DNA of 64,000 bases from Nautilus pompilius (taxonomy: Eukaryota > Mollusca > Cephalopoda > Nautilida > Nautilidae). The translations under genes were made by a program, and so were the position numbers. The stretch lies in contig JACATO010000624.1 of the NCBI GenBank assembly GCA_018389105.1, positions 1,364,001 to 1,428,000 on the forward strand, read 5' to 3'. The notes under the pieces are model-generated. The model ran no database searches. It saw nothing but the letters and a program-made list of their open reading frames with translations, and was not told where the DNA came from. The stretch's first letter is position 1. Each line of letters begins with the position of its first letter. This document shows, in pieces, positions 6,913-49,100 of the stretch.

Positions 6913-8705
6913 GTGTGCTGTGCATGTTTGTTTGACGTAGCTACGTCATTTTACCAATCAATTTGTTGTTTCAAGCAAATTATTTTGTTTTCAGCTCTGT
7001 CTAACAAACGAGACAAACCATCAAGTTCTTCTCAATTGGGCATTGAGTCATATTTTGTAAAGAGACCGAAGGGTAATGCAGCTACGAGGAAGGAAACATC
7101 TGGTGAATCAGTAGAAGTACTACGTAAACTTCCTGATGCGCCTGAACCACTTCTACCAACCGATCCTCTTCAACCTTTTCCAAATGATATAGGAGGATAT
7201 ATAGGTTCAACTGTCACTGATGAAAAACGAAAAACGATATAATTTACTGAAATGTCCATGGATACATTCTGCAGACTACAAATTTTCAAGTGTTGTGCAG
7301 TGTGGGCATAACAGATCCTTTTAATGCCACTGTCTAAACACCTGGGATTTCCTCGTGTACAGCCCAAGCCAGCATGGTGTCTACTGCAAATATTGTGCAT
7401 TATTTGGTCGGGAGAATATTAGAAAACAAAAGCTTCAAAAATTTGTAACGGAACCACTGCCCGAAAAGATTTTGGGAAGACCCGAACCCAATTCGCAACT
7501 GTTATGGCCAAGTGAAGGAGATAGCCACTTTCTTTTATATCTCAGCAAAACGAACAACAGTATTGCAAGCGCATCTCCCTTCCAGGAAAGGAATCAAAAA
7601 GTTTTGCCCAACCCGTTGGGTCAAAGGTCATGCATCAATCATACGTTTCACAGAATTGCTGGTGCTTGTTGTTCGAGCTTTGGAGGATATTTCTCAGCAG
7701 GGTGGTAATTGGGGTGGAAATTCTACGTCATTGCTGCTTGCAACATGCAACACAGAATTTATCATTGCCATTCATGTCATGAACGAAATGGCAGTCTTGT
7801 TCTTGCCATTGTCTAAACTCTAAGGCTCTGCCAACTCCAGATATTGATCTTTTAAAGTGCATGTCAATGGTGGACAAGGTTTTGAATGTTTTGAGAAACA
7901 AAAGAGAAAATGCAGAAGCAGAATTCCATTCTATTTTTACTGATTCAGTTATGACCACATCTGATCAACTGGATGTCGATATCAAACTTCCAAGACGCAC
8001 TGGGCGCCAAGTTCAACGAGAAAATCACGAAGCATCTAGTCCAGAGGAATTCTACAGAAGAACCATCTACCTTCCATACTTGGACAACATGATTCACCAG
8101 ATGGAGGAGAAAATCACGAAGCATCTAGTCCAGAGGAATTCTACAGAAGAACCATCTACCTTCCATACTTGGACAACATGATTCACCAGATGGAGGTGAG
8201 ATTTGACCATATGGAACGACACTGTTTAAAGATGCAACATTTGTTCCCTGCTTTCCTTAGTTCGGGCAACTTCACTGCTCTCCAAGAAATATTTGACCTT
8301 TACAGCTGTGACATTTACACCTCTATGCCAGTCTTGGAAGGAGAGTACGAGAGATGGACATCAAAGTGGGCCAGTGTTTTGAAGACTGAACTGCCAGAAA
8401 ATGTCATCGAGACACTGTGTGTCTATGATTCCTTCTCGTTTCCGAACATCCACACACTGCTGCGCTTATTTGCAACATTGCCAGTCACTACAGCAACAAG
8501 TGAACATTCGTTTTCAACACTTCAGCGGATGCTCACCTATCTACAGAGCACTATGGAACAAGACCGTTTGATTCGATTGGCTCATTTAACGATCAACCGT
8601 GACATTGCAATTGATACAGAACTTGTTATCAATGAGATGTCTAAGATAAAACGCAGACTGAATTTTGTTTGTAATTATTTGTGTCGTAAATCAGTTGCAA
8701 AATAA
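6913..8705 (+). pseudogene. hAT transposase (ZMYM1-like), several frameshifts
   Basis: Fragments of one transposase lie in shifting frames. 6985-7242 holds the N-terminal 'KRDKPSSSSQLGIESYFVK' region. 7355-7470 holds a TTF-type zinc-finger segment ('GVYCKYCALFG'). 7512-7708 holds 'CPTRWVKGHASIIRF', the conserved TRW block. 7861-8181 and 8169-8705 hold the C-terminal half with 'LPVTTATSEHSFSTLQRM', the hAT dimerisation signature. Much of the catalytic core (DUF4371-like) between the zinc finger and TRW block is missing, so the copy cannot encode an active enzyme. An 89-bp tandem duplication near 8018-8195 causes one of the frame breaks. Confidence 0.85.
8018..8195 (+). repeat. 89-bp tandem duplication inside the hAT transposase
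   Basis: The block starting 'gagaaaatcacgaagcatct' at 8018 recurs at 8107 and is essentially identical over 89 bases, ending 'attcaccagatggag'. As 89 is not a multiple of three, the reading frame shifts at the second copy. The lack of divergence shows that the duplication is recent. Confidence 0.93.
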
Positions 8706-15025: not shown

Positions 15026-18000
15026 ATGGCGGAGCTTAATCGATCTTCTATTCGCGACCAAATGAAGGATTTTTACGGGAAGAAGTTGCAGAAAACAGGA
15101 GACCTGAAGGTGCAGGTATGCGCAAAGGATGTGTCCTTAATTCAGCCAGTTAAAGCTGCGCTGAAGTTAGTACACCCCGATGTTACCGAAAGGTAAGCAG
15201 TTAATCAGACTTTAAAGGGCACTCACCCCCCCCCGAAAGTAGTTTCCTAGAATGTAGGTGGGGTGATCGAAGTCCATCACAGGTATGGATTAGTAAAGGG
15301 GCAGCAAGTCGAACAATTTTAAAAAGTAAATTAAAAAATAAATATCAGTCCTATTTCATTCTTGTTGTTGTATGACGTCGATCACAGGTACGTGTAATTA
15401 AGAATAACTAGCGATGTAACAACTCGCCACTGAGACAGCCAGTATCCGCCCCCATCCCTCCTCCCCTTACTGTTTTTTGGACTTTCTTCACCAGTTACCT
15501 CCACCAGCAGATGGCGGTGTTGTTTTTCTCCTCCTGTCGCAGACTACCTTCCTTACCGGGTCTACATTAGACTAATTCCCCCCTCCCTCTCTCTCTATCA
15601 TCTTCAGATATCGGCGACATACTGATCCTATGGGATCGCTAGTTTTCCGTGTTAAGGAGACTGCGGGAAGACCGATCGGTTTGACAGCTGGCGTGGACAG
15701 CCAGCCTTCTCTTGTTGAAAAAAAAGACCAAGTTTAACCATTTCTCCCCTTTGATGTGGTTTCCCAATTTGTCAGAACTGTTTGTTTTTGGTTTTCTTTG
15801 CGAATTTGTTTTGTTTGTTTAACTGTCAGTTTTCTTTATGATTGTAGCATCTCCAAATTATTATTATTTTTTAATCTATTTGCATATACACCATTCATGT
15901 AATATAATGAAATAATTTACCGCATATCAGCATTTATACCGTAATTTTATTGGTACCGCATTATTATTATTATTCCACTGAATTTTAACAGTAACAGACC
16001 TACAACGACCATTTAGTCTGGAAAATATTTTTTGATTTTTCTGGTATGCAGTTCTCTGTAAATCTGGTTGGTTTAAAAGGGGAGAAAGGGGCTGGTTGTA
16101 CAGAGGTAATTTTTTCAGCAGTTCCTAATTAAATGTATAGATATGTCCATTATCTACGTCATCTGGTTTGACCTTCAGTCATATGACATCGATTATATAC
16201 TCATCTATACATCTAATTAGGAACTGTTGATTCTATAACAACTTGCCACTGTGACCAGCCCATTTACACAGTAAAATAGAATACCAGATCATGTACACTA
16301 TAAAATGCATGCTCCTGCCATAATTAAGTATAACACTAAATAATACTGTAGTTGAATTATTTATAAACAAACAATTATCAACGACTTCCTTAAATTCAGA
16401 TGAGAATCTTATTGTTTTAACAATTTGTAAGTTATAGCCCTGTTCCAGATTCATGAAGATTTCATTAAAGACATTTACACTGTTACTGCAAAATCCCAGA
16501 GTCTAGTCATCTTTTGTCAGATTTTATGGATGTGGTTGCTGTATCCCAGAGTGTGTAGAAGGAAGAACAGTTTTGGATTTGGGAAGTGGAAGTGGAAGAG
16601 ACTGCTTCATTTTGTCAAAACTTGTGGGTGCAACTGGTTCAGTTATTGGACTGGATATGACTGAAGAACTAGTAAGCATTTAAAGGTTAATACTACTACG
16701 AACACTGAGCTAAAAAGCATTTCAAGACTTAAGTGTTTAACTTGTGAGCATTTAAATACTAATACTAACTCTAACAAGTTTTATCACAAAATCAATTTTT
16801 TCTCACTCCCCCTTCCCTTTTTTTTTTAAAAAAAATATCAAAATTTTTTCTAATAATTATTTTTTGCAGTTGTGAAATTGTCATGGCAGCTCTGGCTGCT
16901 GCTGATTATGAATGTAATGTTGTACTTGAAGCTTCAAGCCTCCAGAAACTACATTGACTATCACATGGACAAATTTGGCTACAGTTCACCCAATGTTCAT
17001 TTTGTAAAGGGATACATTGAAGAGCTGACTGATGCTGGATTAAAAGAAAACAGTATTGATATTATTGTGTGAGTAACTTCCCAACCTGTTGTGTCTAGTG
17101 GATAAGTCTTTCTCACTTTGGAAATTCTAAAGAGGTTAATATCATGAAGAGAAGCCAATATATTTAACTGTAATTTCTTGGTCACTCTCACTCAGACCAA
17201 CTTTATGTTCAGGTTTTAGTTTTTAGAAAATTTTAAACAAATAAGAACAAAGTAGAATCTATACAGCATTTCACAGCCATTTGGTTAGTTTAACTACTAC
17301 AGATATTTAAGTGGAGCCCTGCCAGATACCATTACAGCAATGCTAGGTTTCATTTCAGCATCCTGTTTAAAACCTGTCAGCAATCTTTTCCTCTTGCCAT
17401 CATCATCAATTAATTTTGAGGATATTTGCAAGGAAGTTAATTTGCAGTAGGTGGTTTGTGTTTGTAGCAGACCCCTGATCTGCTAGTCACCAAGTCTCTT
17501 TGATGTAGTATTGTTTAATCATTGTTTTAATTCACTGCACCGCCAGGCCTTCTACAGAAGATCAGATTTCCCAAAAAAACAATTCATCATATGACTGAGA
17601 TGGACCAGTTACTTTCTTCTTTGTTTTTTTGGGGGCAAGCTAATGCAGAAAGAAATGAGTTTTGGTTAGATAAAACATTCAGTTACCAAATAATCAGCTT
17701 TTTCAAGATCTTAAAGTTCATGTGCTTATCTTTTCTATTGCTTTTAGTTTTATTTGCTTTTAATCTGTTGGTAGTTGTTTGATATTGAAATATTTTTAAA
17801 AAATTATTTTTAGATCTAATTGTGTTGTAAATCTCTCTGCTGAGAAGCATGCGGTTCTGTCTGAAGCTAACAAGGTGTTGAAGGTAAACATTTTAATTAG
17901 AACTACATTGTTAACATTGTAGGGATTTTGTTTGATCATTTGCTTGTTTACTTTCATAGCAGAATGGACTCTTAGGTTATTATTGGATATATGATCTATT

Positions 18001-21000
18001 AGAAATCCTATGCAGTTGGAAACCCTTTATTTTGATTGTTTGATGATTACTTTCTAAAAATTCTTGATCCTTGATTTCAGAAGGAAAACAACAACACAAA
18101 TAAATAAATAAAATAAGTTGGTCTGGTTGGTAAATAACCTTTTTTTCTGGCGAAATGAATCTTTACAGAATACTTTGCTGTCTTACCAGTCATTCATCTG
18201 GTTAATAGATCCCATGTGATTAGATGTTGGAGGAGTAGAGCAGCCTGATATGAAGAACAAGCGAAAACACTAACGCACTGGTTACATACCTAAGAAATCC
18301 AAGATCCATTCTTGGCCTAATCCTGGCTGGATCCTTTTTAAATCAATCAAGAAATACAATAAATTGTGAATATTAGATAATACAACATTTGAAATGTTGT
18401 TGTTCTGAACTTTTTGGTTGGTGATGAAAGTTCATTAAAGTGCATGTCAGATATCTTATGTCTGTAACATTCTGTAAATATAATGCAGTGTACATAGAAA
18501 CAAACTAAGTTAATATAAAGATAGCATTTCTTTGAATGCAATGTCATAAGGATTTTGCATATTTTCCGTATCTCTCATTTTTCTTCATTTTTGACATTTT
18601 GAAAAATACAAAGTTTGACACATTTATCCAAAGTTTACAAATTAATACAAAGAGGATAAAAATTTTGTTGTGGTTGGACTACATTTTATACTTGAAGGAT
18701 TAAAAACAAAAAAGCTATTGGAGCTAAAAAATAACTTAAAATATCATATTCAGGAAAATGCAGCAGAAAATATAGACAGACATGATAATACAGAATCCAT
18801 ATTTTCTCCACTGATACTCTCTGTCTCTATTCCAGTATACCATTTTAATATCCACTTATGAATCCAGTAGACATTTAAAACTAAAAGATATTGCTTAAAA
18901 TTAATTTTCTTCAATCCCAGATGTCTAAAGGTTTTAAGTACAGGGACATTTACAATATTTTTTGACTGTCTATAACAAACCATAACTATAAACTGTTTAC
19001 AGTATCAGCATGGCATATTACTAGTAAAACAGTTATATAATTAAAATAGAATAGATTAGTAATAGTGTAAGCCAGTTTTAGAAACAAACTAATGGACATT
19101 TCCCTTCCCTGGGGTCTGTATCAACAAAGATGACTTGTTAAACCTAAAGTAAACTAATCTAAGCTAAACCAGCATGTTGGTCAGGTTTAAAAAATGAGTA
19201 AGAAAGATAAAAACGAACAATACAAGTTATTTAATGCAAGCAAATTAAAAACCTGAAGAATATTATAAAAGTTGATAAATGAATACTATTTTCTTCAAAA
19301 TTTAAAAATGGGTGCAGGTGAAATTTGAATTAAAAGATTTCTAATTTTATTATTTCCAGCCTGGAGGAGAGATTTACTTTAGTGACATGTATGCAGACAG
19401 GGAACTCCCAATAGATGTTAAAGAAAACAAAGACATTTGGGGTATGTATGAGATGTTTTTTTTACAGCCTTAAATGGGGATATCCATTAATTAAAAAAAA
19501 AAAAATATTGTAATTTATGAATAGTTTCATGGCACACCTTTCCTCTTTGATGTGGATTATCAAACTATCTGTCAAGTCTTTATGTAAGATGTTATATATA
19601 AGGGATATCACAGATTTAGAGTAAACTTTTTAAAATTGCATAATAATGACATGAGTGCATTCTCTGTAAAGGCAACTGATATGGCAGTATAAAGTAGACT
19701 GGAAATATTATTTCCAAAGTCTTTGCACTCATACTAAGATATGCAGAAGGTATAATATTTTTAATTGAACAACCATTTTGGTAAAAAAAGTTTTTTCTTT
19801 GCCTATCTAGAATAAAACCACATGAGAAACCTGTCATGAGACTGGAAGATGTGATGTCATTACTAATGTCAGCCACAGCATTATTTCTCATGGCTTTACA
19901 TTCTTAAAAAATAGATTTAGATCCTACTCCTTAAGTTCTAAATAACATAACTGAGATTTTGCTTAGAATTATTGTAAATAATAAGGAAATTCAAATAATG
20001 TCACAAAATAACTGGGGCTGTTTTTCATCTTCACATTTGTATTAGAGTTAAATTATATCATATTAGATTGCATTTGACAATTTCCCATATTATGTAAAGC
20101 CCCTTTTGCAAAAAAATCTGCATCTATTCTTTTCTAAACACTGATGCTGCTTGCTCCTGCTGTCTGATTTCATAAAGCATTCAAACCATGGCATTACAAT
20201 TACAACAACAACATTTTATAAGGTCTAGTTTTAAACATTACCTTGCAAGTTTAAGCCTGTGCCCCCTAGTTGCTTATGATGGGCATTTAGCATGACAGCC
20301 CACTACGTACAATTTTGTTTTGATATGCCGCTATTGTTAATAATAAAAATTACTTAACATGTTTTTTTTTCAAGTTGTTATTTTTTTTAAGATTTCAACA
20401 TCACATGCTTCTGAAATGAGTCTCCACCTTGTATAAATAGCTACATGTTGCACAATTTGTTCATTTTTTACATAGTGAAATTTCACAGTATTTTTTCATG
20501 AAGGTTTCCACAGTTAGTGCACAATGTCCCCTCCCCCAAGTCTGCCCCTGTCTTATATAGTGTTGGCTTCTGGATTTTTCCCAGTTAGATAGTGATATAT
20601 TGTACAGTTGATTCCTGCATTAGGCATTGATGTGTTCTACAGTTTGTCTGTTACAGCTTAATTTGTTTTTCACAATATTTCTATAAAGGCCATTTTATTT
20701 TAGGATTCATGAGCTAATAAAAATATAATAGAGCCAACTTCCATATTAATCATAAAACCAAACGCATAAGGAAACTGTGTGTGTAGTTTTGTAAATGGAA
20801 TGTTGTCATCATCACTGGAAAAGGAAATAAATAGTCTTTTATAATTTCTGACAAAGATAATTTTTTTTTAATTATTTTGAACTTACTCCTTTTTTAAAGA
20901 ATCCAATTACATAGTAATCTTTCCCTGTACACACTTACAACGTTTTCTGTATCACATTCTTTCTGATTTTGTGATTGAAAATGATGAAAACAATTAATTA

Positions 21001-23720
21001 CATTCTGCTATGATGCACTTGTAGCTTTTTAGAAAAGCATCAGGGTTTTGATAGGCAGTCCTTTAGTATTCCAAGGAAATACAAATATTCCATCATTATT
21101 TAAGAATATGTTGTTTTATTTTTAACATGGTTAATAAAAGTAGTTAACAAAAGAAGGATTTACTTTTCTTCACCAAAGCATTTTCATTACCTGATGTGTT
21201 AGTAAATTGAGCAGAATCATTAAAAGTATTTAAATCACTGACTGAACTAGAGAAAAACATGTATACATTAAATTTAGAACATTGGCTATATGTGCAACTT
21301 CATTAGACCTTGCACATCTTTTCGCAGGTGAAGGATTTTCTGGAGCTTTATGGTGGAAAGAATTATTTACTTTGGCTAAAAATGCTGGACTCTCCAAGCC
21401 ATACCTGGTGACCAGCTCACCTATTCCAATACACAATGAAACTATCAAACGGGCTGTTGGTAAGTCTGGATTCAGGTTTCAGATGGTTATCTGAAGGCTA
21501 CAAGCAAGGGCTAGGATTCTGTGCTTATTATTATTACTCTGTAGTCATATCTCCACAAGAAATTATTATTAAGGATTTCAAGTACAGAGATCCCTATCAA
21601 TACCAAAGTAATACTTAATTAGCTTTGTTATGCTAAAAATGTATTTTCATTTTCACATTGTGAGCTGTGTAGGGAACACTCAATGTTCTGTTTAAAAACA
21701 CAGGGTAATGCAGTGATTTAGGCTAGGCTTGAATTTGTGCACTACATAATCAATACTGAGTCCTGTTCTCAAGTCACAGAAACTTCTGGTTACTTTCCTG
21801 ACAAGATTTTATGGGCCAGGTATTTCCCTTGTGACTGGTCTGTCCAGGCTGCTTTGGAACTATTACTCTTGCTGTAATGCAACATTGCGATTATCTTGGG
21901 ATTTTCCTTTCGATGACATGCCAACACTTAATTTCACATAGTAAAATGTGTCTGACCCCTGTTCAACAAATATTTAACTTGATATTTTAGACTTTGGTGA
22001 TTGACTACAACATTCCCCCTTGTCACTGAGAGAGAAACTTAATCTGTACTTTAAAGGTAATATGTAATTGTTTTGTAAATGTTTCAACTACTTTTTATGA
22101 TGTTACACTATAGTAGGACATTTTAGACTTCGAAGTGTGCAATACTGTCATTTTGCACTAACTACATTTTTAGATGGTATTTAAACAGTATTGTATTTGT
22201 GTGTAGAAATTTTGAAGCAAAGGTACATGACAAACTTCAAGGTTGTGCACAGAATTCGTCCTCACCACTTGTAAATGCTGTCTTCTTGACAATATGCAAA
22301 ATAATAACAATAAATAATAATAAAATAATGATTGCAAATATAGATTTTTAGTAAAGTGTGGAGGTTTCAAAAGGTTTTGAATATGTAAAAGGTGGAGCTT
22401 TTAGTAGCAGGATTAAACTTGTAATGTTTATTTTTTTAAGAATTTATCTGCTCAGCATAAAAATAATTAACTAATGATTTGGAATGAACTAATTAACATA
22501 GACATTAGCTTTTGTTGCCATTGGGGATATTTTGGAATGTTTGTTTGCTTGCTTAATTTCATTTTTTGTGCCTATTTCTTTTTTCATCAGGTGATGTCAA
22601 TTATGCAGCTGCAACATACCGTCTCTTCAAACTGCCCAGTAATAAAGAAAAGCCAGCACAGGTCACCTACAAAGGTGAAATACCTGGATATAAGGCACAA
22701 ATAAAATTTGATAACCAGCTAATATTCAAGGTATGGTTAAGTTTATGTTACTTACACAGCATAAGAAAACAATCAAGGGAAATCTGGAAACTGAAGCTGG
22801 AGATATTATTAGAAATATCAGAAGTTTAAAAAAGAGAATATGCTATCAACTTCATGAACATATCTGAAATTCATAGAAAACAGTCCAAGGAAAAATATCT
22901 TCAAAATTTATTGCACTCCTTGTTTCCAAAAATGAGAATCAAGCCAGTTAAATACATCAAACTATTTTAAAATCCTCCTTCATAAACTAACCTTTTTGAA
23001 TTATTTATACTGGACATTGTACAAAACATTTATAAAGAAAAAATTCATCTTTTATTTTATCTTTAATGACTGACACATTCATTATCTTTTATTTCAGTTT
23101 CTAACATTCTCCAAATTTTTAAGGTATAAATATACAAACCCCTAAATGTTCTCCCACCTCTACATTTGCCTCTGTAGAATTATCTGGTCTTTTCAATCCA
23201 TTAAACTGAGATCTTTTAATTCACTTTGATGTGAAATGTGCATTTGAAATTATTAAAGCTGCTTTGTCTTTTAGACTAACTAACTATATAACTGCTGCAT
23301 TTTGCCTTTAGTCTGGTGAAGCGGTTACTGTCAACAGCGAAATTACCACTATTTTGAAAGCATCTCGATTTTGGAAGGAGTTTGACTTTCAACCGGTATC
23401 TACCAATTGCTGTAATTCAACTTGTTGCCAGGTACAATTCTATTTTTTACTTGTAATATTACATCAATGTCTAGGAACAGAAATTTGATGTAGTAGCCAC
23501 CACATCTGGGTATGTTTATGAGCAACTTATTTTTAAACTGTTCAGGCATTCTGTTTCTTTACCCACTTCATTGGATGTTCTAAGATGATTCCAGCTCTAG
23601 TCTGAAGAATGTTTTTAAAAAACCCATTTCTATTCATTTTAGCCTTATCCTGGTCATTTCTTAAAATTAAAGTTGTTTTTATTTTATATATTTCCTGTTT
23701 GTTTGTTTGTTTGTTTGTTT

Positions 23721-23768
<48 letters not shown>

Positions 23769-24179
23769 ACTCACCAATCGAATAATTCAAGAAGCTTAGT
23801 AGATATTTTAAAAAATGAACTTTTTTTTTGCATTTGCAAATTTTCTGATATATATTAATGTGTAACTACCCTCCCTAGTAAATTGATTTACATTTGAATT
23901 ATTATGAAATGTGGAATCTCGCATGTTAAGTCCACATTTATGGTGGTGGTCATCAAAATGTCCTCCAAAAGATATTTAATTAGTGAGTCTACAATTATGA
24001 CCACCAGTTCATTATATCCAGGATGTATATTGAGAAACGTTTTGTGTAGTCAAGGTTCCTACATACATTCAGCTCTTTTTAAATTTTTTATTTTGAAGAT
24101 ATCTGACCCATTTGAACTGTTAAAAGGGGTGAAGACAACTAAAACAAAGCCAGAAACTTCTTGCTGTACTGAGAACTGA
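15026..24179 (+). CDS. AS3MT: Arsenite methyltransferase, copy A (nine coding exons)
   Basis: SAM-dependent cytosolic enzyme that methylates trivalent arsenic to mono- and dimethyl forms. Exons read from GT/AG borders: 15026-15192, 16521-16671, 16932-17068, 17814-17883, 19360-19441, 21328-21459, 22591-22730, 23312-23431, 24099-24179; all phases join and give 359 residues (human about 375). Seen: N-terminal region with C32, 'YGCG' with C60, SAM motif I LDLGSGSGRD (residues 74-83), a GLDMT motif, 'SNCVVNL' with C155, the 'GGEIYFSD' strand, then 'GALWWKEL' and 'YRLFKLP'. The tail is cysteine-rich (NCCNSTCC, TSCC). C32, C60 and C155 match human Cys32, Cys61 and Cys156, but the position of human Cys206 is glycine (GEGFSG). 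The start at 15026 (AAAATGG) matches the family N-terminus; an in-frame upstream ATG at 14909 is also well placed. Introns contain little recognisable transposon sequence. The last exon is supported by 'DPFELL' and a stop but is short. Confidence 0.9.
16119..16226. repeat. Short inverted repeat (hairpin or MITE-like) in intron 1 of AS3MT-A
   Basis: Arms 16119-16142 and 16203-16226 begin CAGTTCCTAATT and match at 23 of 24 positions, separated by 60 bases. No clear target-site duplication is seen at the edges. It could be a small MITE or a stem-loop in the transcript. Confidence 0.6.
23697..23767. repeat. (GTTT)n then (GT)n compound microsatellite
   Basis: A GTTT run followed by about 20 GT units in intron 8 of AS3MT-A. 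It explains the spurious Cys/Val and Thr/His open frames here. Confidence 0.97.
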
Positions 24180-34527: not shown

Positions 34528-36992
34528 AGTTCATCAATAATCACCAGCTTTCATAAAGAGTTGTATCCACCTTTCCAATGTTTTCATCAGTTGTGTTATG
34601 CAAGTTATTTAATCATTGTCCAATACTGTTCAGTTATTTTTAAACCTGTCCACCCACTCGCACACTTTGTGCTATACAGCTTGAGCTAACCTTCTCAACA
34701 GGTACTTCAGTCAACAGAACACCTTCAGCCCACAGAAAACAAACTAGATTGTTGCTCTTCCATAAGGAACACTGACAACTGCAGGATCATGTTTTGATTT
34801 GGTACATCAAATGGTGCTCGGCTTCACAGCCTTTACCACTGTCACACAAAATATGCTGATGTAAATATTGCCTTTATTTTCTGAAATACCTTCAGAGGTG
34901 TATACGCACAAACACATTAGTATTTTTTTGTTTCTTTATGCGTCCTACAAATTATTTCTACTTGTTTATGTTAGACTCCTGCATAATTCATGGAAACATT
35001 TAAATGGTTGATGTGTAAACGATCCTAAGTAATTAATGCTAAATTCAAAGACAGATTAAACAATTAAGTAAAATTTATTAGTAGTGAATGTACCATACAA
35101 TCATGCAAGCTGTCTCTTAAAATGAGTCAAATAAAAACAAGCTAGTTCTCTGATTAATTGCATATTAGTCTCCACTTAACTGTATATCAAATAATAAAAC
35201 CTGATTATTTTGAGTTAAATAACCAGGTCATACTTTCAAAGCAGTTTCCACCAAACTGTTAGCAGCATGCATAATCAAAGGCATGCTTGACTAAGAGAAT
35301 GCAGTCATTTAACCAGTTTATTTATATATGTTATCTCCAGCAGTATAAACAAATTTGTAGCTTTAAACCAGCACAATATAGCAGACAGTTTGACAATCTG
35401 CGTATGTTTTAACATTAAAACACTCCTCCTAACCTCCAAAGAGTTCCATGTGTGGACTAGGTGTTACTTTGTATGTAATTTGCAACAGGATCTTGTTTCC
35501 AGGTGATTTTTTTTTAAAAAGTATACATGCATTATTTTTTAAACCACTCATTCACACTCAGCAAATTGACAATCAAGACATTACTGCATGGCAACAAAAC
35601 CAAAATTCTTCTACATGCACAAAGGTGAAACCAAATACAGTACATTAAATCATCTTCCCTAAACAATAAGCTACATATTTTAATGGGAGAAACAATAATG
35701 AAAGATTTAACCAGCCATGTGATGCCTGTCATTACATTTACAAACACCAAGTAGTTATCACCATAGCTCAGTGTCTAAAAAGCCTATTTTAACTTTTTAA
35801 TTTCCTAGATGCCAAAGCACACACATCAGCTTTATTATCTGTAATTGTTCCAGAACATTTACTTTATCCAGTGCCTGATACCATTCCTTCTTACAGTAAC
35901 TTATTTGGCTAGCTAAACTGGTTGTTTTTCTCTTATTATGCCTCATGCCATTCACTCTGGTCTCATTTTTAGCCTCAGGCTGGGGCTTAAGATTGAGCAA
36001 ATTCAGTACACCATTTTAAAACAGTTTCAACAGAATAATTGTGAAAGTTTTAACTGCTGATAGAATGACTCAACTTACTATCAGCAATCTCCGATCTTAT
36101 TTATTTTCATTAAGAAAAAGAAAAAATTATCCACATGAGAGCTCACTATCAGGTTCTAGATTAATTTTAAGTCAATTTAAAATTTAATTTAATTAATTGC
36201 ACCTACAGTTGTATTCATTTTGATGCAAGCAAAAACCACAAGATTGCTGCAACAGGAGACCACTCAAACAGCCCACAACCGTGGTGCAGCTCGGGTAGTA
36301 GTTCATCCAGCAATGAACCCAGCAGAAATAATATAGTAACATGCACTGAAATATATATCTATATTTAAGCAACTATCCCCAAAAATTATTTAATTCTACA
36401 ATTACTGAACTGAGTCACCTCCCTTTTACTGCATTATGTAATCTTGTAAATAAAATAAATTTTGTTTAAATGTACAAGATATTTCTGCAGTTTAACACAT
36501 TTCAATGATATTTTTGACACCAGCCCCAACATACACAGTCAGCCCTGTTCTCCCTGTACTGTGATGATTGTGGAATGACAGTAACTACTACAAAATAGAA
36601 TTAAATCACTGTATATTCTTTCAACTAAATATTATCGTCTGAAAAATCAAATGTTACACCTCGTTTTTGAAACTGACCAGACTTTGCTGTCAACATTTGA
36701 ACAAAATATTTCAGCAACACTTTTTTGAAGAGCAGCAAGATGTCATTGACCTTAGTCCAGCATCCCCCATCTTTGCCAGAAATTCAAATGGATCAGACAT
36801 CTAAAAAAAAAAATAATAATATGCTTATGAAGGTTGTGCCTCACACCAACTTTTTCAAATTACAGATGTTCTTACATTCAGATCTTTTGCAGGCATTGGA
36901 CCTACGAAATCTCTCTCCCTGTGTTGTCAATCAGTATAGCTAGTCAGTCAGCTATGGCGAAATGTTTTCTGTTTCATTTTTAGGTTTCTATT
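34528..36992. other. Non-coding stretch beyond AS3MT-B
   Basis: AT-rich sequence with no recognised gene, transposon or RNA. Confidence 0.5.
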
Positions 36993-36998
36993 TTTATT
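36993..36998 (-). promoter_or_regulatory. Candidate polyadenylation signal of AS3MT copy B
   Basis: AATAAA on the minus strand about 200 nt beyond the tentative stop codon of copy B. The spacing fits a 3' end if the proposed exon 9 is real. Confidence 0.3.
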
Positions 36999-37196
36999 TT
37001 AAAGTTTCCATAAAACAACTAAAGATTTTAAAAAACAAAAAACTTCAACAGTAAAAAGTATGAAGACAAGCAATGCATTTGTCAGTACACACAGAATTAC
37101 AGCAAAATTTCAAACAAAACTCTATTCTTCACCCAAAATTATCAAACACTTTGCATCCAATTCTATCAGGATGGCAGGTGTTGTAACACATTACAC

Positions 37197-40100
37197 TTAG
37201 ATACAACTGGATCTTCTTGGGGAGATTTTGCAGACTGGTTTTCTCCAACATCTAAAAATGAAGAGTTCTAAATATGGATCTTCCACTAAAGCACAGGAGA
37301 GTGGAAAAGTGCATGGATGGTGCAATGAAAGCCACCATCTTGACAAATGATGCAAGAATTCTGCCATTAAAAGCTCACCATCAGCAGCATAATTTTGGTC
37401 ATGAAAAATTATATATATATATATATAAGGCATAAAGGACACAAAGTAAACATGCACACACAAACAGCAAATGTTAAAATATTAACAATAAATCACACGT
37501 TAAAAAAAAATAGCAAGACACATCACATCTCTGTACATAATTTCCTGTCTCTGTAGCAAGTCTGAATGACACCACACCATTAAGAATATTTATGTCTGAG
37601 TTGCTTTTTTTTTTTTTTTTTTGTCACTTTAGACAGTGGCTGGAAACAAGGTTCTAATTTGAAGACTACAACTTGTGAAAATAAAATGGAACAAAATCTG
37701 TTGTTTCGATAAGCTGTAATACAATAAAATACAGGTTAACAGCCCACATTTGGCTGTAGAGAGAGAGAGAGAAAAGCAACCCATTGTTAACTCCAGGTCT
37801 TCAAAAGCAGACATCACAACCAGAATTAATTTTGAGGAATTATAGGAAAATGACCTTATGTACGTAAGGGTTGATGCAGGATAACTATTTGTTACTTCTT
37901 GTATTAATTTGAAGCTCAACTTATATCCAAAATGGAGAATAAAATTACATGAACTGGAATTGCTCTGCTGTGTAAACAATTTATGCCATTAGAAAAGAAG
38001 GTACTACAAATACATTTAAAATTCAGATTTAGAGAGAGTAGGGATTTATCTACAGAAAGAAACACATAAACCAACTTAACTGTTTTGCACTTACATTCTG
38101 TTATAAAATAAATGACAACTTGAGATGGTAAAAATTAGGGTCAAAGTTACTTACATCTTTTAGAATTATCTTGCATAACACTGAATAATTTATGCTTTTA
38201 TATAATAAAGTAATTTTTTTTAAATTTAATTTTAAATGTACTGAATTCCTGATTGCAGTTTTAAAACTAAAAAAAAATAAGATTCAATAAACCTACAATA
38301 ATAGCTTAATTATCATTTAATACACATTTTCAAAAAATAATGCTGTATATAACAAATTTAGTGTCTAAGGGAAAACATTCTTTTGACGGAAGGTAAAGCT
38401 AGTTTGAAACAAAAGAATAAATAATTTCCCATGTGTTTCAATTGTTCTTTCACCATTTACATTACAAGAAGCAAAATATAACTGTCACCCTGACAACCTG
38501 AAACATTTCTACATAGCCAATAAGTCTGGCAAAATCTTTAAACACTTTTAATTAATAAAATCAAAAGCATTTACAGTCAAACCTGTCTATAACAGCCACT
38601 TAGGGGACTGACCAAAAATGGCCTTTATGAGCAGGTGGCCTTTATATCCAGGTTGGGTAGTATGGCCGGCCAAATTATAAATAATTAAACACATGCAAGT
38701 ACAATGTATTTAAAACAACACTTTTATTAATTATATACATATTTGTAAAAATCAAATGCTATTTCTAATCGAATATTTATATCAAATAAATGTCTTTTTT
38801 TGGAAAAAATCATCAATTTTCATTTGTTTCCTTTGTTTACTGATATTCATTGCTTCAATCGTTGCCTGGATGTCCAAAAGTGATTCTAGTACATCATGTC
38901 GACCAGCAAGTTTCATGTAGTTGATGACATCCTTCAGTCCGGATTGGCATTTTGACATGGTGATCATTTCTTCTTTGGTAGCTTCTGGCTCAGGAATATC
39001 ATCATCTGTAGATTCTACATCTGAAGTGCTGTGGCTAGGTACTGTAACTGCAGGGCCATCCAACTGTGTTGTTGCCACTTCATTATCTATCTTAACAAGA
39101 TCTCTAAATTCACAGCTAAACAAATCTGTGGAAAGCTTGAGGGCCATAAGGGGAACATTAACATAATCTGAGTCATCATCCTCCGTAGATGTGGAAGGCG
39201 CCGGTTCGGGATTATCGTTGGAGAGAGGGGTGTCTAGCACACCAAAGCCACATGATTTAAAGCATTTTTCAATTGTGGTAGCCTCGACCGCTTTCCAACA
39301 AGAATTAATCCAATAAATGGCGTCAAAGACCGATATTTCCTTCAAGATTTGACTGCCGCATTTTGTTTTGTCCTCCTCCATGGCATTGAGGACAAACTGC
39401 AGCTGTCGGGTGCGGAATTTAAGTTTAAAGGCTTGGATGATTCCTTGATCCATTGGCTGTGACATGGACGTTGTGTTGGGGGGCAAGAATTGAAGCTTGA
39501 CATTGGAAAGTTTTACATTAGGGTGTGATGGAGCATTATCTAGGAACAATAACACATTTCTCTTTTGGCGACGCATGCGATTGTTGAAGGATTTTAGCCA
39601 ATCATCGAACACATAGCTGGTCATCCACGCCTTGCTATTGGACATGTAGGTAACCGGCAAGGATTTGACATCAAGATTCTTGAAGCAGCGAGGCTTAGCA
39701 GATTTACCGATCACCAATGGTGTGTACTTTTCGCCTGTCATACTAGCGCAAAGTGCTATCGTCAATCTTTTTTTCGACATTTTGCCACCACGACACTATG
39801 TGCCTTTCACGTGAAATGTTTTTTTATTGGTTGTTGCACAGTAAATCAGACCGGTCTCGTCCATGTTAAAGATGTCTGCTGGTGCGTAGTTTTCACACAG
39901 CTTGGGGATCTTTGCTTTCCAATCACTGACGACTTTTTCGCTGACGTCACCACTTTCACCGGTGATAGTACCAAATGCAATGTTATGGCGCTTTACGAAG
40001 GCCTCTAGCCAACCATTTGAACCTTTAAACTCGTCATTGTCAAGTTGTTTTGCGAACTCAAGTGCTTTTTGTTTTAATAGTGGACCAGTAATCACGATTC

Positions 40101-43100
40101 GTCGAGAAGATGCATCACAAAACCATTCCCAGCACATTCTATTGATTTCCTCATTGCCAGTTTTTCTAGATTTGCGCTTGCGCTCACTTGAAACATTTGA
40201 TTCATAATCGGCTAACACTTCTGCTTTGCGTTTCACAATGTTTTGAATCTGAGTGCGCCCTACACCTAACTCATCTGCTATTTTCCGAGCACTTTTGCCA
40301 TTATCACTGAGGTTTACAACTTTCACACAATCTTCGAGTGTCAATGTCGTCCGTTTTGGCGTAGCCATTGTGTACAGTATGGAAATTCAATGCAGAATGA
40401 AATGCAATGAAAAACGGAGGCTATTTATACAAATGTCTTGCTTCGCTATAAATAGAAAAAGTCATCAAAGAATTCAAATAACATATTATAATTAATAGGC
40501 GAATGTCTGAAGTTGATAAGCGCATGTCATGTGGCATGAATTGTGATAAAGTGCTCAGTGGGAGACGCGTTCACTGCATAAATATTGTTGTTCACTCGTA
40601 GTGTTATTAATGAAAAGTGTATGTTATTATTCTTCAATAAAAAAGCAAACCATTGTCTTTAGTTTACATTATTTTTTTCTTTGATGTTTGTACTCATGGG
40701 AGAATGCGTCTCCCACTGAGCACTTTATCACAATTCATGCCACATGACATGCGCTTATCTGGCAGTTAATTGGCATGCTGGCGCCACGCCAGAGCTGGGG
40801 CCGATAATGGCCGCTATTTAGCAGGTATAATATGGACGACTGGGGCCTCAAATGAGCGGCCGTTGGCCGCGTTGACCAGGTGGCCGTTCTATCAAGGCCG
40901 TTGTCAATGTAATTTGGTACGGGACTGTTTCAAGATGGCCTTTAAGAGCAGGTGGCCGTTCTAAGCAGGTGGCCGCTTGAGCAGGTTTAACTGTACTTTT
41001 TAGTTATTCAGGTTTTCAGCTTTTAAACTCTGTTTACATTTATTTCCACAAACTCTTAATAAGTTAAAAAAGCAAAACAAAACTAACTACTTCCAGAGTT
41101 TTAATCCCAGTTTGGCAAACATCCCTGGCACAGTTTATTCTCACTCTTCTTTGCCAGCTGGCTTCAGTTTCCTCCCACATCGAAAAACGAAGAGTTTAGT
41201 TGGGATTTTCTGATACGGTAGTGGAGGTTCTGCAGGTAACTCTCCACTGTCCTGCAACTGTTCAAGCTCTCAAACATACCTAGATAACTACTCACCCGGT
41301 CTCCCACCAGCACCCCCCCTTCTAGCTCACTGCTGTGAAACGTCCTTAAACCCCCAACAGTCAGGACATGGGTTTGCCATTGAGGAATTTGTCGACCTTA
41401 TTAACCCAGGATTCTCAGTGCTTTATGTGGCTGAGAATGAATATGTGCATAAATTAAAGGTAAACCTACAACAGAATCTGGCTGGCAGCAGACGGGGCTG
41501 CATTTTGACGAGGGCTGGAAGTCAAACTCCCCAATGAACCGGGACATCTTCAGAATGGAAGCCATTTCTCCACTAACAGGCACCACATCACCAGCCTGAG
41601 AAAGAAAAACAAAATTATCATTCATTTAGAAGCAAAAGCTACTGTGGAGTCATTTTGATAAAAAAAAAAGAAAAAAAGCACCTTCACATTTTTAAGCATA
41701 ATACTCTTCTTCCAATAACCTCTCAAGTCTGTATATTTTAATGAGTTTACTGAGTACAATACAATGTCTAGCCACAATAATTTGGACACCTGTTGTTACT
41801 GCAATATGTTAGTTTACTGAGAAAAACAGCAAGAAAAGCAATAGAGTAAAATTATTTATGTTAGTACTTTGTCTAGCCATCATTTGCTGTGCAAAAAGCT
41901 TCTACCTTGTTTGATACTGAATCAAGGAGACCCAGTACTACAGTCTGCTCCTCCATATGAAAGCTTAATTTAATTCTATCACAATAGGAGGTCATGAATG
42001 GCTTGCTCTCTGCTGATGAACAGATGCTCCCATAGGTTTTTGATCCTATTCTTATCATCCCTTAAGGGTACCCAGTGAAGTTGGGAGCCTTGATTCCACT
42101 TCCCAGATTGTATGTCATGTTGATGCATGTCTTCAAGATGTTAATGTTCCCAAAAGATTTGAGATGTCCTTTAAACAAACCAATTCTGTCTTTCCATAAC
42201 ACCAGATTCCAGGCTTCACACTTGACCATGAACTGAAGGCACTGAGATTGAGAATCTTTGTTAAGTCTTCTCCAAACCCAGACAAGAATTGCTGAAACCT
42301 AATCACATCTTACTACATGCCTTCTGTCACCAAACTGGAGATGTTGTTACACTGATCCTTGGCTGATTGGGTAACGTCAGCAAAAGAATCTTCACACTGT
42401 GTGGGAGACATGACATGTTCTTGTCAAGGTGACACTGCTGGAGGACTTGTAGATCATTTTGCCACAGCAGTAACCTTCACCTAACTAAACTTCACAGTAA
42501 TATTAATCACATATCCATAGAAACTACTGAAATCTTTTGACACCACACTCTGAATGGCTTATAACGAGAAAACAGAAAAATATCATGAGGTCTGTGTTTT
42601 TGGTATTATGATAGTGCATTCTTGTTATGTACCCCTATACATTCAATATATACATATTCATGGCTGAAATATTTAAATTTCAAACAAAATACGTCCATTT
42701 ATGGATCGCTATATTAATATGGAAAAGTATTGTGGAATGCCTAAGGGAAGTAACTTAGAATTATAGTTAATTTTTTTTAATTATATAAATTATTTCCCTT
42801 TCAAGTAAAATAAAACTATCATACATGTAAAAGAGCTGCAATATATATTGGTTCTACTACGTGGAATTTTTGAATTAATAAAAAAATAATAATTTCCTGT
42901 GTGCATTTTCTACACCTGATAATTATCAAAGCTTAAATTTCTGAATTAAAAAGTCAGTTTTGTCTGATAATTGAAAAAAAAAAAAAAGGAATTTACTCAG
43001 TTTACCATCTTTCCTCCATACCTTGAATGTCACTTGGTGGTCAAACATCAGTTCATTTTCATATCCTGGTACTTCTCCTCTGTAAATGACGTTTGTGGCT

Positions 43101-46100
43101 TTTTCCTTTTTGTCAGGCAATTTAAACAGTCGAAATGTTGCCGAAACAAACTTAGCATCCCCTGTAAGTAAAGTAACAAGTGACACAGGCAAGGAACATT
43201 ACAGTTAAGTGTTGTATTTGTTGCAACATAATACAAAACATAACAAGTATTAACTCATTTCTGTAGAATGAATTATGCAACAGTACTTAAACAGGCTTGC
43301 ATATAAGGCAAACTAAAGGGCATATAGTGACAAAGACATGTTAGTTAAGTTCTGACTAACAAACAATCTAAGTGAGAGAAATCCGAATTTAAACAAGTAT
43401 ATTTTTGGTCTTGAGTCTTGAGGTTTAAGGATATCTCATAGCAGTGCGCTAACTGGGAGGAGAGGAGCTGTCTGCCCTGGTAACCAAGCAAGCTACTGAG
43501 GTACAGTTGAAGCTCTCGAATAGCAGTCGAGGTGGAAGCCAAACCTCTACCACATATACCCAGAAAACCATACTATAAATTTTCATGGTTAGATGTGAGT
43601 GGAAACTCACATGACAAGCTGGTGAAGAGCAAAAACAAACCATGCAATGGAGGTACACCAAACCAAACTGTTCTTGACCAGGATTCAAACTTGGGTCATC
43701 AGCCTAGCAGTCCAGTAAGCTAAATACTAGGCCACTACCTTCCCAGAAGCAGGTTAAACATGTGCACTGCAAAAAAGAATGTCTTAGGTGGCCTTACAGA
43801 AATTTTAAAACAACACTGCTATTTTTCCAGAAGCCAGAAATGTTTTGCATAGGCATACTGTAAATCATTATTTTCTTGTCCTGTTAACTTTGCAATTTTG
43901 CTATAAAGACCATCTTGTGTTGTCCATCAGATGTAAGTTGACTGACTACAGCATATGATCTATTACAATTTAATGGATTTGCTTAATGTTGTTGTTACAG
44001 AATACTGACGACAATGCAGTAGTAGTGTACAAGAGTGGAAGTAAACCATAAAAACCAAATGAAGGAAACTTAATACTAGTGCAGTATCAAGTTTCTGGTG
44101 ATTCTTTTTTCTGTTCGTTAAACATGATTAATTTGTATGAGTAATCAGTTTTAATGCATTTATATTTTTTTTATTATGCTAATAAAATGCCAACTGTAAG
44201 AAAGAAACGTAAACATTGAAAAGTTGTATTTTACATGAACGTATACTATTACCAATATTTAGTTTTATAGGGGAGATAACTGCGCAAAAACATCTTATTT
44301 CTGGAATTTTTTTTAAAAAGTTTTCACTACTCTCAATTTTGCAATATATTTAATATTGTTAAAATGAAGAAAGTAAAACAACAAAAATTTTGTAAAAGAT
44401 AATCAGCCAATGCAATATGAATATGTTAAAATTTTGTCTGACATTTTTAAAAGAATGGTAAAAGGAATACATGTATGAGGGAGATTCCAGGTTTGCCTGC
44501 ACTTTGAATTGTAGAAAATCTCAAGGGGAAAACAAAATTCCAATGATGTTGAGTGATAGTAGTGAGCCTGCTCTACTCTTGGCAGGATGAAGGTGGCTGC
44601 TGTGCAGTGCAAGCTGGATACAGCTATGACAGCATTAACCGGTGTATCATGTGTTGGGGAACAGCATTGTTTTATTGAGTTCTTAGTGAAGAAGAAAGAT
44701 TTACAGAAGATTATCTAAAGGAAAAGTGCACTTGAATGGTACATTAAATTCATAAATAAACAAAAATTCACTCTGGAACCAAAGCAAGAAAGCAGGCATG
44801 CAGTGGCATCACTTGTGGTCTCCACAGCCAAAGAAACTGAAGACTAAGGCATCCATTGGGAACATTGAGGCAGCAATGTTTTGAGATCTCCAGGAATTAA
44901 TACACATGGATTTCCTTGAATGTAGAAAAATGTTTAACAGACAGTATTATAAGGACCTCCTGAGCAATGGAGCTTCAGTAGTACTATACAAAACATCCCA
45001 AAATGCCAACTGCTGGTGTGGTGTGTTGTCCTACATACAGCAAATGTGACTATTGCAACCATTACAAATCTAGATCTGCTTACCATATGATTTCAACCTG
45101 TTTGGTCCCCATGAAGAACATTTTGATGGCATAAAGTTTAAGAATAAAGATGTAATAGTATCCTGAAGTGGTTACATGCCAAACCCAAAGCTTTCTATGC
45201 ACCACACAAGCAGTATAAGTGCACCTGTGTAGCAGGGAACAGAGAAGTAAATAAAAAGTTACACCAACTCTAATTAAAACCAACTTTTTTTTGTTGTTAG
45301 GAAATAAATTGCAGGTAGATCTTGAATGACCCTGATATATAAAAAAGAAATTACCAATAAATTTGCCTACATATAGCAGATGATACGAGTTCATTTTATA
45401 TGTTTACTAAAAATCAAAATAAGGTAATAGATCTTTAAATACTATAATGCTTACAGATTGGCTAATGATCGTCACCTACCAAATCTTTTGGTTTCAATTT
45501 TGGTTTTGTTTCCTTGCATATCACTCACACAAGTAAAACTATTCTTTTAACTTCAAAGGACTACCAGATTACTTCAGTTTTGTTTTGTTTTTTTCAAGTA
45601 AAATTGTTTTTTTTAATCTTTAATTCTGGTGTAATAATCTTGAAACAATATGCATTTAAAAAATAATTCTTACGAGAATGAAAAAATTAAACAAATTAAA
45701 TGCATTTTTTAAAAAAATTAATTTTAATGCAATATTTATTCTTGTTGTTGTAATAATGGTAAGCTGCTGCTATCAGAACTCACACTATTTATAGAAATTC
45801 CACTAAAGAGATTTCCAGGTAAATGACTGACCAGAGAACTCACCAAGTATCTGTCTGTAGTTTTCACTGCTTACCACCACTGCTGACGCAGTCACAAGCC
45901 TTGGCTTACTGAACCCAATGCTGTCAGCTAGATTCACCAACTCTTTCCACCATAACGCCCCAGAAATGCATTCCCCTGTAAAAGAACATCCAAAAAATAC
46001 CTGTACAAACTGTTTTATCAAAGTAGATGAAAAAAACTAGTGACTACAAATTATCTACCTTGTTTGTTTTCCTACTATAAGGAATAGTGACTAACAGTAC

Positions 46101-49100
46101 AGCATGACTAAAAATATTAGATTTAAAAACCTAGGTCTTTCTTCTTTTAAGAAAAACCCTGATAATTCCTTTTTCTCTTTAAATAATTAAAGGGTTCAGA
46201 ATGTGTAAACATTAGCAGGTAGGTTTTCTACAGATCATAATAATACTAGAGGCAATTATAAGTTGGTAGGGGCTTCATCGTTGCTAAATAGTAGAAAATT
46301 TTCAAAAACTGAATAAACTGAAATAAAAAAAATAGCTGTGTTGGTAATGATAGTGCGAAATCAACTTGTATTCACAGTCAGAAACCGTTCTCTTTCTGTG
46401 AGATCTTCTATCAGCAACAATGTAAAAACTCAACAATATAAACTAAACAAAGCATGATCTCTTTTTAATGGAATTTACTGCAAGATCTTAACAAGCAAAA
46501 AAAGTGCTTATCCAGAAATAGCAGTTTCTCTTCAGCCTACTGGTGTCATAGTTTAAAAATATTTATAAAAAATATTTTGTTCACTTAGAAGCCATAGTGA
46601 AATACTGGTCGGTGACATTTTACATTCCACTAAAGAAAATCAGCTACAAAGTTCTCCTTGATGCAAAACAGTCTGTCCAAAACAAACCAAAAAAAATGTC
46701 ATCTCTATTAAGCACAACCACAAATAAAAACAAGCAAAAATAGCTCTATTTTAAATAAACCTTGTTTTCTCAAAAGAAGCCACACTTTTACTCATTTCAT
46801 CAACTATCTACATTTAAACCTTTCTATTTTCAAATTTGATTGAAAATTTAGAATTACAAGGAATGAATCAAAACAGTAAATAAAAAAAAAAGAATATCCA
46901 ATAATTTTCACTAAATGAGTGTTGAGATTTCAAAAGTAACATTAATATATTTGCCAGTACTTTGTTCTTTATTATAAAATAAATCTTTTAATCTAATCTG
47001 TTCATCAATAAAAGGGCATAAAGAACTTTTCCATAGTATAAATACCTGTATTTCTCTTACATTGAACAAACAATGGGCAAAGTATATTTAGTACAATGTT
47101 GGTTCAGTTTCTACCCAGTAGAATCAATTCACTCTCTGTATACCTCCTTTGTTGCATTTGCACTCCACCACCCTTTATATATACTGGCTTTTTCACACAT
47201 CCAAAAATGAAGCTTTCTAGTAAGAAGTTTTGTTAAGTTCATTTGGTAGCAAAGATCCAAATCACCAACTTGCAAAGGTCTGGCCATCCACCAAGTACTA
47301 TACTTGGTCAAAGACAACACTATATTCAACTTACGGAGACAGATAGACCTTTCAGATTTGTACTACATAGCACAGGGTGAACCATAAGCACTGTTATACA
47401 CAATACTTTCCTTATTAAAATAACCCTTTTTTTGTCAACAAATCTCCAACCACACATATTTTTTTATTACAAGTGTGTCAACTAAATATACAGTCAGTTC
47501 GGCACTACTGCTAACTAATGCTTCTAGGCTTGGGTGATAGAAGGGAGGTAAAAACTGACATGAAGGATTAAATACACACTAATCAAAAATACTATAAATG
47601 CACATAATTTTCTTTTTAATTTAAAAATTAAAAGGAGATAACTTAATATTTTCTCCCTCGATTTTGCAGTGTTTGGTTGGATAGTCTGTTTTTTGGCAAG
47701 AGAAATCATGGCCTTTTAGTCACAGCTCTGTTTCACAAAGGCAACATCTCTCTCACCCCACAGGTCACTATGCTTCCTGGCTTCTTCAGGAATGTCCCTG
47801 TCTGCATAAACGTCACTGAAGTAAATCTCCCCACCAAACTGCAAACAAATAGATACAAACAGAAAACAAAACAACACCTGAAGCATCCAGACAACTTTCA
47901 AGAGGATGGGAGGAGAATTTTAAAAGTTGTGGTATCATTATTTTTTGATCTCTCAGTTATTTCTAAAGCCAAAGAAAACTAATCAACATCTTGAGAAATT
48001 TACTGTTATAACCATTACAATCTTTTAATCACAAAAATATGCATTAAAAATATCTTTAACTTACAAAAAGCCTATTTGCAACTACTCAATCTTGAAATAT
48101 GTATTGTTTTTTTGCATAGGTATATATTTTAATAATTAAAATATCCCTACATGTAAAAATAATAAAATTCACCTTCAACACTTTGAAGGCTTCAGATAAA
48201 ACAGCTCTCTTGTCTGGGGACAAGTTAATCACACAATTTGATCTGCAAAAGAAAAACCAAAAACTAAAGATGATGATGATGACAAACAGCTGCATGCATA
48301 TGGCTAACTAATTTAGGTCCATCAAAGGATTTGGTCAGTCACATTTTAAAAAGTGCCTAAACAAGAAAAGATCCCTTTTCTGTGCAAGTCCCTGCTTACC
48401 CATAGCACCATATCTATATAAAAGATACTAAAACATCTGTTAAGTATTACAGCATGTATGGCTGCCACAGAAAGATTTTTGGTGCACTTGACACCAGATT
48501 TCTGGTAAACAAACTTCTGTCAAATCTAAAATTCATTTCTGACTAAGAAATTGCCAAACGTAGCAAAATACTAATATTTTGGAAAAGAAAAACAATATTG
48601 AAAGATGGCATTTGTTTGTTTTTCTGTATTATATGCTTTATAAAATGTCATTACAAAATAAAATTTAGAAAATGGCCACTGAAAAAAGTACTGTTGTAAA
48701 GCATACGTCAAATGCATCATTAGTAGTATTTTAAAATGAAAATGGCATGTCGAATGTAATTGCTTCTCGAATGGCTGATTATCGCACACGTGATCCTCAT
48801 GCTGTTAAGATGCTGAATGAGTGCAAATCTGTGGTATTCTCTGCCATTTCTAGTGTAAAGTCCAGACAACAATATTCAGGACTTTTCTTTATGCTAAACC
48901 CAATTTGATCACAAGTGTGATCTATCAAATTTAAATCTGGGTTCAGAACAAACAACCAAATTACTCTTTGTCCTGGGAAAACTACACCACTGCAGCCGTA
49001 CAGTGGGGTGATACTGTCATATATGAATACTTAGGGCACAAATTCAGTAACAAGATTAAGCTTACATTCATGAGATGCACATCCCCACAACACAATGGAT

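Follow-up and report, generated by a model that had tools for sequence, protein, structure and literature searches.

The 64,000-nucleotide stretch of Nautilus pompilius DNA analysed here (contig JACATO010000624.1 of assembly GCA_018389105.1, positions 1,364,001 to 1,428,000; hereafter the window) carries two paralogous genes of the arsenite methyltransferase AS3MT, termed copy A and copy B. Copy A has a glycine at the position of the arsenic-ligand cysteine Cys206 of the human enzyme, a replacement that appears to have been made many separate times in spare AS3MT copies of related animals. From the sequences we consider it somewhat probable that copy A belongs to a recurrently evolved and selectively kept kind of AS3MT paralogue whose arsenic pocket has been remodelled and whose reaction has changed.

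Glycine at the Cys206 site of copy A and of its relatives

Copy A consists of nine intact exons (15026-24179, + strand) encoding a 359-residue protein in an uninterrupted reading frame. It is an AS3MT by descent, homologous to AS3MT and ArsM proteins in sequence and fold along its whole length and with the motifs DLGSGSGRD, DMT, GYIE and NC for binding of S-adenosylmethionine (SAM) all present. The segment 21328-21459 coincides exactly with exon 6, delimited by acceptor cgcag and donor gtaagt, whose frame reads G-E-G-F-S-G-A-L-W-W. Its codon 205 (21333-21335) is GGA for Gly and is the counterpart of human Cys206: in human AS3MT (chain 8xt7_A) the corresponding stretch is WGECL, and copy B has TGC at its codon 203. 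The original prediction of a lost arsenic ligand in copy A is confirmed in this respect, as is the retention of Cys32, Cys60 and Cys155, which are read directly in the sequence and correspond to human residues 32, 61 and 156 (copy A numbering is human minus one from Cys60 onward). Copy A is thus without the Cys156/Cys206 pair that defines canonical AS3MT, having Cys155 together with Gly205, and has both cysteines of the canonical first step, Cys32 and Cys60.

Relatives were gathered by two protein searches (best 120 of 5987 and best 120 of 7122 scored matches; 151 distinct sequences). Alignment at the Cys206 site, as had been proposed with the prediction, gives Cys in 138 of the 153 sequences including copies A and B, Gly in the other 15, and no third state; the query of the second search was built from Gly copies, so that 15/153 is no frequency. 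Cys32, Cys61 and Cys156 are Cys in all 153. The Cys206 site is also Cys in 80/80 prokaryotic relatives (best 80 of at least 580), and Cys is therefore taken as the ancestral state and Gly as derived. These loci were collected with two scan patterns, one of which includes the SNC motif, making their Cys156 partly a matter of construction, while neither touches the Cys206 site; two of the 80 translations contain a stop.

The closest named relatives of the AS3MT of the window are molluscan among the matches listed (Haliotis rufescens, 56% identity). Gly copies are found in the bivalves Mizuhopecten and Pecten (scallops), Ostrea edulis, Sinanodonta (a freshwater mussel) and Solemya, in Octopus and Argonauta, in the ray Narcine and in the pipefishes Nerophis (twice), Dunckerocampus, Syngnathus and Stigmatopora; P0036 and copy A complete the set. 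The Gly copy of Pecten maximus (P0020) reads GEGC, with a Cys one residue after the site. In Mizuhopecten yessoensis the Gly and Cys proteins (P0010 and P0015) are labelled isoforms X2 and X1. We rejected splicing as their origin, since they share 72% identity with differences over the whole length; they are distinct paralogues, not products of mutually exclusive exons.

Recurrent origin and repeated second changes

Trees were built from subsets of the 153 rows (69, 42 and 31), picked to keep the Gly copies and their neighbours; the largest includes all 15 Gly rows and the two others the nine of the invertebrate-type group. With columns 185, 205 and 251-253 omitted, the 69-row tree requires ten changes of the Gly label, nine of them forced by supported branches, and Gly forms a single clade in 0/200 bootstraps. 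A 122-row tree gives 11 changes, nine forced. Among the 42 invertebrate-type rows, residues 1-172 alone yield eight changes, all forced, and residues 173-294 minus the signature columns yield seven, six forced, the two scallop copies then joining. The approximately unbiased (AU) test rejects monophyly both for the eight Gly copies from molluscs (p 1.8e-52) and for copy A plus the two from coleoids (p 0.0016; the branch of copy A is long, the longest end branch of all). Copies A and B adjoin coleoid cephalopod sequences in the 69-row tree (97/87) and do not in the 31-row tree. These topologies point to about nine origins of Gly, with scallops, coleoids and pipefishes counted once each.

Among the 14 Gly rows besides copy A, eight have a conspecific Cys copy on a contig of equal size, presumably the same one (Mizuhopecten, Pecten, Ostrea, Sinanodonta, Octopus, Argonauta, Solemya and Syngnathus acus); no linked Cys partner is found for the remaining six among the matches listed. 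Copy A shares the features of this proposed recurrent class: Gly at 206, the three other cysteines kept and a Cys copy nearby.

Loss of Cys206 goes together with retention of the other cysteines and of most of the SAM site. Cys32, Cys61 and Cys156 are kept in 15/15 Gly rows, and ten of 12 SAM-site positions checked are unchanged in all 15. The exceptions are Tyr59, replaced by Phe in four Gly rows, and Gln107, replaced by Leu in copy A (Leu106, where 152/153 aligned copies have Gln), the sole change of copy A among the 12. In the human enzyme Y59A is reported dead and Q107A to keep 22% of Vmax (accessible text of PMC3790734).

Other substitutions recur with Gly. In human numbering, Val186Met is found in 10/15 Gly rows vs 1/138 Cys rows, Phe252Tyr in 7/15 vs 0/138, Ser254Ala in 4/15 vs 0/138 and Tyr59Phe in 4/15 vs 1/138. 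Copy A has the first three as Met185, Tyr251 and Ala253, at sites that are Val or Ile in 136/138 Cys copies (185) and Phe and Ser, respectively, in 138/138. Over nine independent pairs, Met186 accompanies Gly in five (four in a few pairings) and the reverse occurs in none; the figures for Tyr252 are five and none. Departures of the Gly copies were further counted by lineage in the 92 columns, column 205 aside, for which Cys rows show a conservation of 97% or more: 38 fall in the arsenic-site segments (31 columns), one in the SAM segments (14 columns) and 23 in the other 47 columns. The arsenic-site segments had been drawn by hand after inspection of the alignment; with them the permutation p is 0.00035 and only 1/91 circular shifts matches the observed difference. 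The departures thus appear to lean towards the arsenic pocket.

Possible function of the Gly copies and competing explanations

Duplication would come first, often leaving the Gly copy linked to one of the Cys type. The duplicate concerned would swap Cys206 for Gly and undergo further changes in the arsenic pocket, with Cys32, Cys61, Cys156 and nearly the whole SAM site retained. Selection would then maintain the Gly copies for methyl transfer or binding that is independent of the Cys156/Cys206 pair, which holds the methylarsenical. The Cys copy would carry out the ordinary conversion of As(III) to monomethylarsenic (MMA) and dimethylarsenic (DMA), and the Gly copy would act on another thiophilic substrate or step. 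SAM would be bound much as before, the thiophilic substrate being held by Cys156, Cys61 and Cys32 without the Cys206 clamp. A structure model of copy A (built from 12 sequences; mean predicted local distance difference test score, pLDDT, 79) places Met185 at the end of strand 174-187, and Cys155 directly after strand 148-154. In class I methyltransferases these strand ends border the active site, so that Met185, at a strand end beside Cys155, could supply a soft sulfur ligand.

Canonical arsenic methylation by copy A is unlikely because the human C206S mutant is reported to be completely inactive on inorganic As(III) and MMA(III) with glutathione (GSH), tris(2-carboxyethyl)phosphine (TCEP) or dihydrolipoic acid (DHLA), while C32S and C61S fail only at As(III), the first step (accessible text of PMC3877260). 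By analogy with these mutants the Gly copies are without a residue required for both classical steps and retain those required for the first step alone. The suspected inactivity of copy A on inorganic arsenic is what one would expect from this comparison. The proposed limitation to one methylation step is at odds with it, C206S being dead on both steps and copy A retaining the cysteines whose loss spares the second. For a changed substrate, the third possibility put forward, there speak the recurrence, the strict use of Gly and the repeated second changes, so that this is the option we favour as a hypothesis.

Several observations weigh against a selected change of reaction. The human C206S mutant being dead, catalysis by the Gly copies is not assured. 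The Gly partner has evolved faster, its path being the longer one in 12/12 pairs (1.1 to 7.5 times; the pairs are not all independent), and the Gly copies are unlike their partners at many variable positions over the whole protein. Departures from conserved columns amount to 5.9 per Gly row vs 0.59 per Cys row with column 205 included, and to 4.9 vs 0.59 without it. Because the Cys rows themselves served to define these columns, the Cys count is deflated; with half of the Cys rows used to judge conservation and the other half to count departures, the figures are 5.4 and 0.98. With windows set in advance at Cys60, Cys155 and Cys205 the departures lean the same way more weakly (p 0.09, 0.014 and 0.010 for ±4, ±6 and ±8 residues; 0.13, 0.017 and 0.013 with Cys32 included), a result that slightly lowered our confidence in the favoured hypothesis and slightly raised that in relaxed constraint. 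The sign tests on paired changes have a median p of 0.0625 each, the minimum possible from five differing pairs. The structure model falls below pLDDT 50 at residues 26-35 and 57-60, the site of Cys32 and Cys60. A gene under relaxed constraint that still had some function would give much the same picture.

The main rival is accordingly the drift of a spare copy that has lost its arsenic site and is dispensable or on its way out, Gly being just a residue tolerated in a tight loop. We hold this to be unlikely, with a real share of the probability. The longer paths of the Gly copies, their roughly fivefold excess of departures over held-out Cys rows, the dead human mutant and fixed-window clustering at just p 0.01 to 0.13 all agree with it. 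From a Cys codon, single-base changes lead by two routes to Ser and by one to Gly, besides four other residues. With Ser twice as reachable, the fact that all of the about nine changes went to Gly and never to Ser counts against simple decay. So do the three cysteines and ten SAM-site positions preserved in every Gly row, and the return of the same second changes. Copy A itself is open across nine exons with a dN/dS of about 0.15 against copy B (nonsynonymous dN 0.34 and synonymous dS 2.2 by the method of Nei and Gojobori, NG86), a comparison suggested with the prediction; the values fit constraint, and the saturation of dS detracts from this argument for selective keeping.

A non-catalytic role is less probable still. 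The Gly protein would bind As(III) through Cys32, Cys61 and Cys156, or pair with the Cys copy, as a regulator or arsenic-binding partner that does not methylate. Three thiols kept in 15/15 rows without Cys206 and the apparent linkage of Gly and Cys copies in eight species would suit such a protein; the mostly kept SAM site would be needless for a pure binder, and we know of no hetero-oligomeric AS3MT.

It is also rather improbable that the Gly copies are a convergent enzyme dedicated to late, single-thiol arsenic methylation, such as that of a dimethylarsenic(III) compound to a trimethylated product, for instance arsenobetaine. DMA(III) is said to require one cysteine only (PMC3877260, accessible text), so that loss of Cys206 would end the trapping of inorganic and monomethyl arsenic and free the enzyme for the late step. 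The named carriers of Gly copies are all aquatic; the matches listed are mostly from molluscs and fishes and thus offer no terrestrial contrast. The invariance of Cys32 and Cys61 weighs against this role, a one-thiol step having no evident need of them.

We give little credence to one ancient Gly paralogue, retained all along, that the adjacent Cys copy has overwritten by gene conversion outside the pocket. Linkage of the copies favours such exchange, and the pocket states Met185, Tyr251 and Ala253 are common to several molluscan Gly copies. However, in the tree of residues 173-294, signature columns removed, the copies still group with their own lineages (seven changes, six forced, a single Gly clade in 0/200 bootstraps), and the pipefish and ray Gly copies lie within their own vertebrate clades. 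Very short conversion tracts would be compatible with these results.

Equally doubtful is that copy A still methylates arsenic with Cys62, Cys63 or Met185 as the sulfur ligand in place of Cys206. The original prediction had named a nearby compensating cysteine as a possible objection, and copy A does have Cys62, Cys63 and Cys67 soon after Cys60, which might compensate locally; a single-cysteine ArsM of Thermus is reported to be functional (PMC8649762, accessible text). Cys62 and Cys63 occur in 0/14 other Gly rows and Met185 is absent from 5/15, so the extra cysteines are no feature of the class and cannot explain it.

An error of sequencing, assembly or gene model, the other objection foreseen, can practically be dismissed, although a single assembly was available and the exon 3 acceptor is a less obvious one: GGA is two bases away from either Cys codon, so that no single-base error explains Gly205, and the same change is present in sequences of other species.

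Gene structures, the rest of the window and known enzymes

Table 1. Exons of the two AS3MT copies in the window, with diagnostic residues in copy A numbering.
Feature	Position	Strand	Content
Copy A exon 1	15026..15192	+	ATG start, donor gtaagc; Cys32
Copy A exon 2	16521..16671	+	Cys60, Cys62, Cys63, Cys67; SAM motif DLGSGSGRD; Leu106
Copy A exon 3	16932..17068	+	acceptor tgaag
Copy A exon 4	17814..17883	+	SNC155
Copy A exon 5	19360..19441	+	FSDM185Y
Copy A exon 6	21328..21459	+	GEG205FSGALWW
Copy A codon 205	21333..21335	+	GGA = Gly
Copy A exon 7	22591..22730	+	Y251-A252-A253
Copy A exon 8	23312..23431	+	exon model
Copy A exon 9	24099..24179	+	with stop codon
Copy B, Cys-type AS3MT paralogue	36711..55476	-	nine exons (exon models)
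Copy B exons 1-5	55476-55316, 53009-52859, 52350-52214, 48242-48173, 47838-47757	-	
Copy B exons 6-9	45975-45844, 43161-43022, 41595-41482, 36800-36711	-	

The acceptor of copy A exon 3 lies 62 nt downstream of the stronger-looking ttttttgcag (16869; region 16869-16931), whose use would lead to an immediate stop. By eye, a branchpoint-like word TGCTGAT precedes the tgaag acceptor by some 25-30 nt. Copy B exon 8 has no GT donor after 41482, the position homologous to copy A; it presumably ends there, or else at 41470 with a gtaggt donor 12 nt on, adding four residues.

The two genes are arranged tail to tail, the end of copy B lying 12.5 kb downstream of copy A. When all 2558 contigs of the assembly (727.6 Mb) were searched in six frames with copy B as protein query, the 17 matches obtained were exclusively exons of A or B, so that no further AS3MT copy was found. 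A hidden second exon 6 in the window was rejected by a six-frame pattern scan, which recovered the two real exons only; tblastn on the window found the two as well and, apart from them, chance-level matches, the best a short one at 58807-58763 (E 0.25) outside both genes. A protein search with exon 6 alone returned no match.

Mobile elements are found in copy B introns and elsewhere in the window. Intron 8 contains a Tc5/pogo-like transposase (DDE_1, HTH_Tnp_Tc5, CENP-B_N; 38785-40386, - strand) split by a stop codon into two open stretches, and intron 3 an endonuclease fragment (Exo_endo_phos_2; 50095-50787, - strand) of an element resembling long interspersed nuclear elements (LINE). The C-terminal dimerisation region of a hAT-family transposase is encoded at 8040-8702 (+ strand). 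Two tRNA genes on the + strand (61821-61893 and 63219-63290) score above the Rfam gathering score.

Compared with the animal AS3MT of human (PDB 8xt7), copy A has Cys206 replaced by Gly together with V186M, F252Y, S254A and Q107L, and the extra Cys62, Cys63 and Cys67. The equivalent laboratory mutant CmArsM C224A has a crystal structure (PDB 5jx7); it is a point mutant of a working enzyme, to Ala, whereas copy A is natural, has Gly and carries second changes. The ArsM of Bacillus sp. CX-1, with two cysteines, is like copy A a natural ArsM with fewer conserved cysteines. Its Cys145 and Cys195 are kept and reported to be required for As(III) to MMA (PMC6950371, accessible text). We equate this pair with human Cys156/Cys206, which makes the Bacillus enzyme the reverse of the Gly copies, where Cys32 and Cys61 are kept and Cys206 is lost. 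TtArsM of Thermus thermophilus is another natural arsenite methyltransferase without the usual three-cysteine site; unlike copy A it is only distantly related, has a single cysteine and is proposed to use histidine ligands (accessible text of PMC8649762).

AS3MT has been reported as rarely duplicated (PMC5398495), and in a large survey, which kept sequences with at least three of the four arsenic cysteines, these were found conserved in every ArsM retrieved (PMC5552862; both as far as their accessible text goes). Titles and abstract openings in the open-licence literature yielded no AS3MT paralogue without Cys206 and no AS3MT duplicates of molluscs, rays or pipefishes. The Gly206 variant is recurrent and apparently maintained, and no earlier description of it was found in that literature.

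Annotation pipelines name the Gly copies 'arsenite methyltransferase', although Ser at this site abolishes the activity of human AS3MT. In these copies one key ligand has been lost again and again, with Gly taking its place every time and second changes that match. This amounts to a natural experiment on the ways in which an enzyme of metalloids may change its reaction, and pairs of Gly and Cys enzymes from the same animal allow direct testing. Taken together, the sequences suggest that the replacement of Cys by Gly in AS3MT duplicates is more probably a repeatedly evolved change of job than decay.
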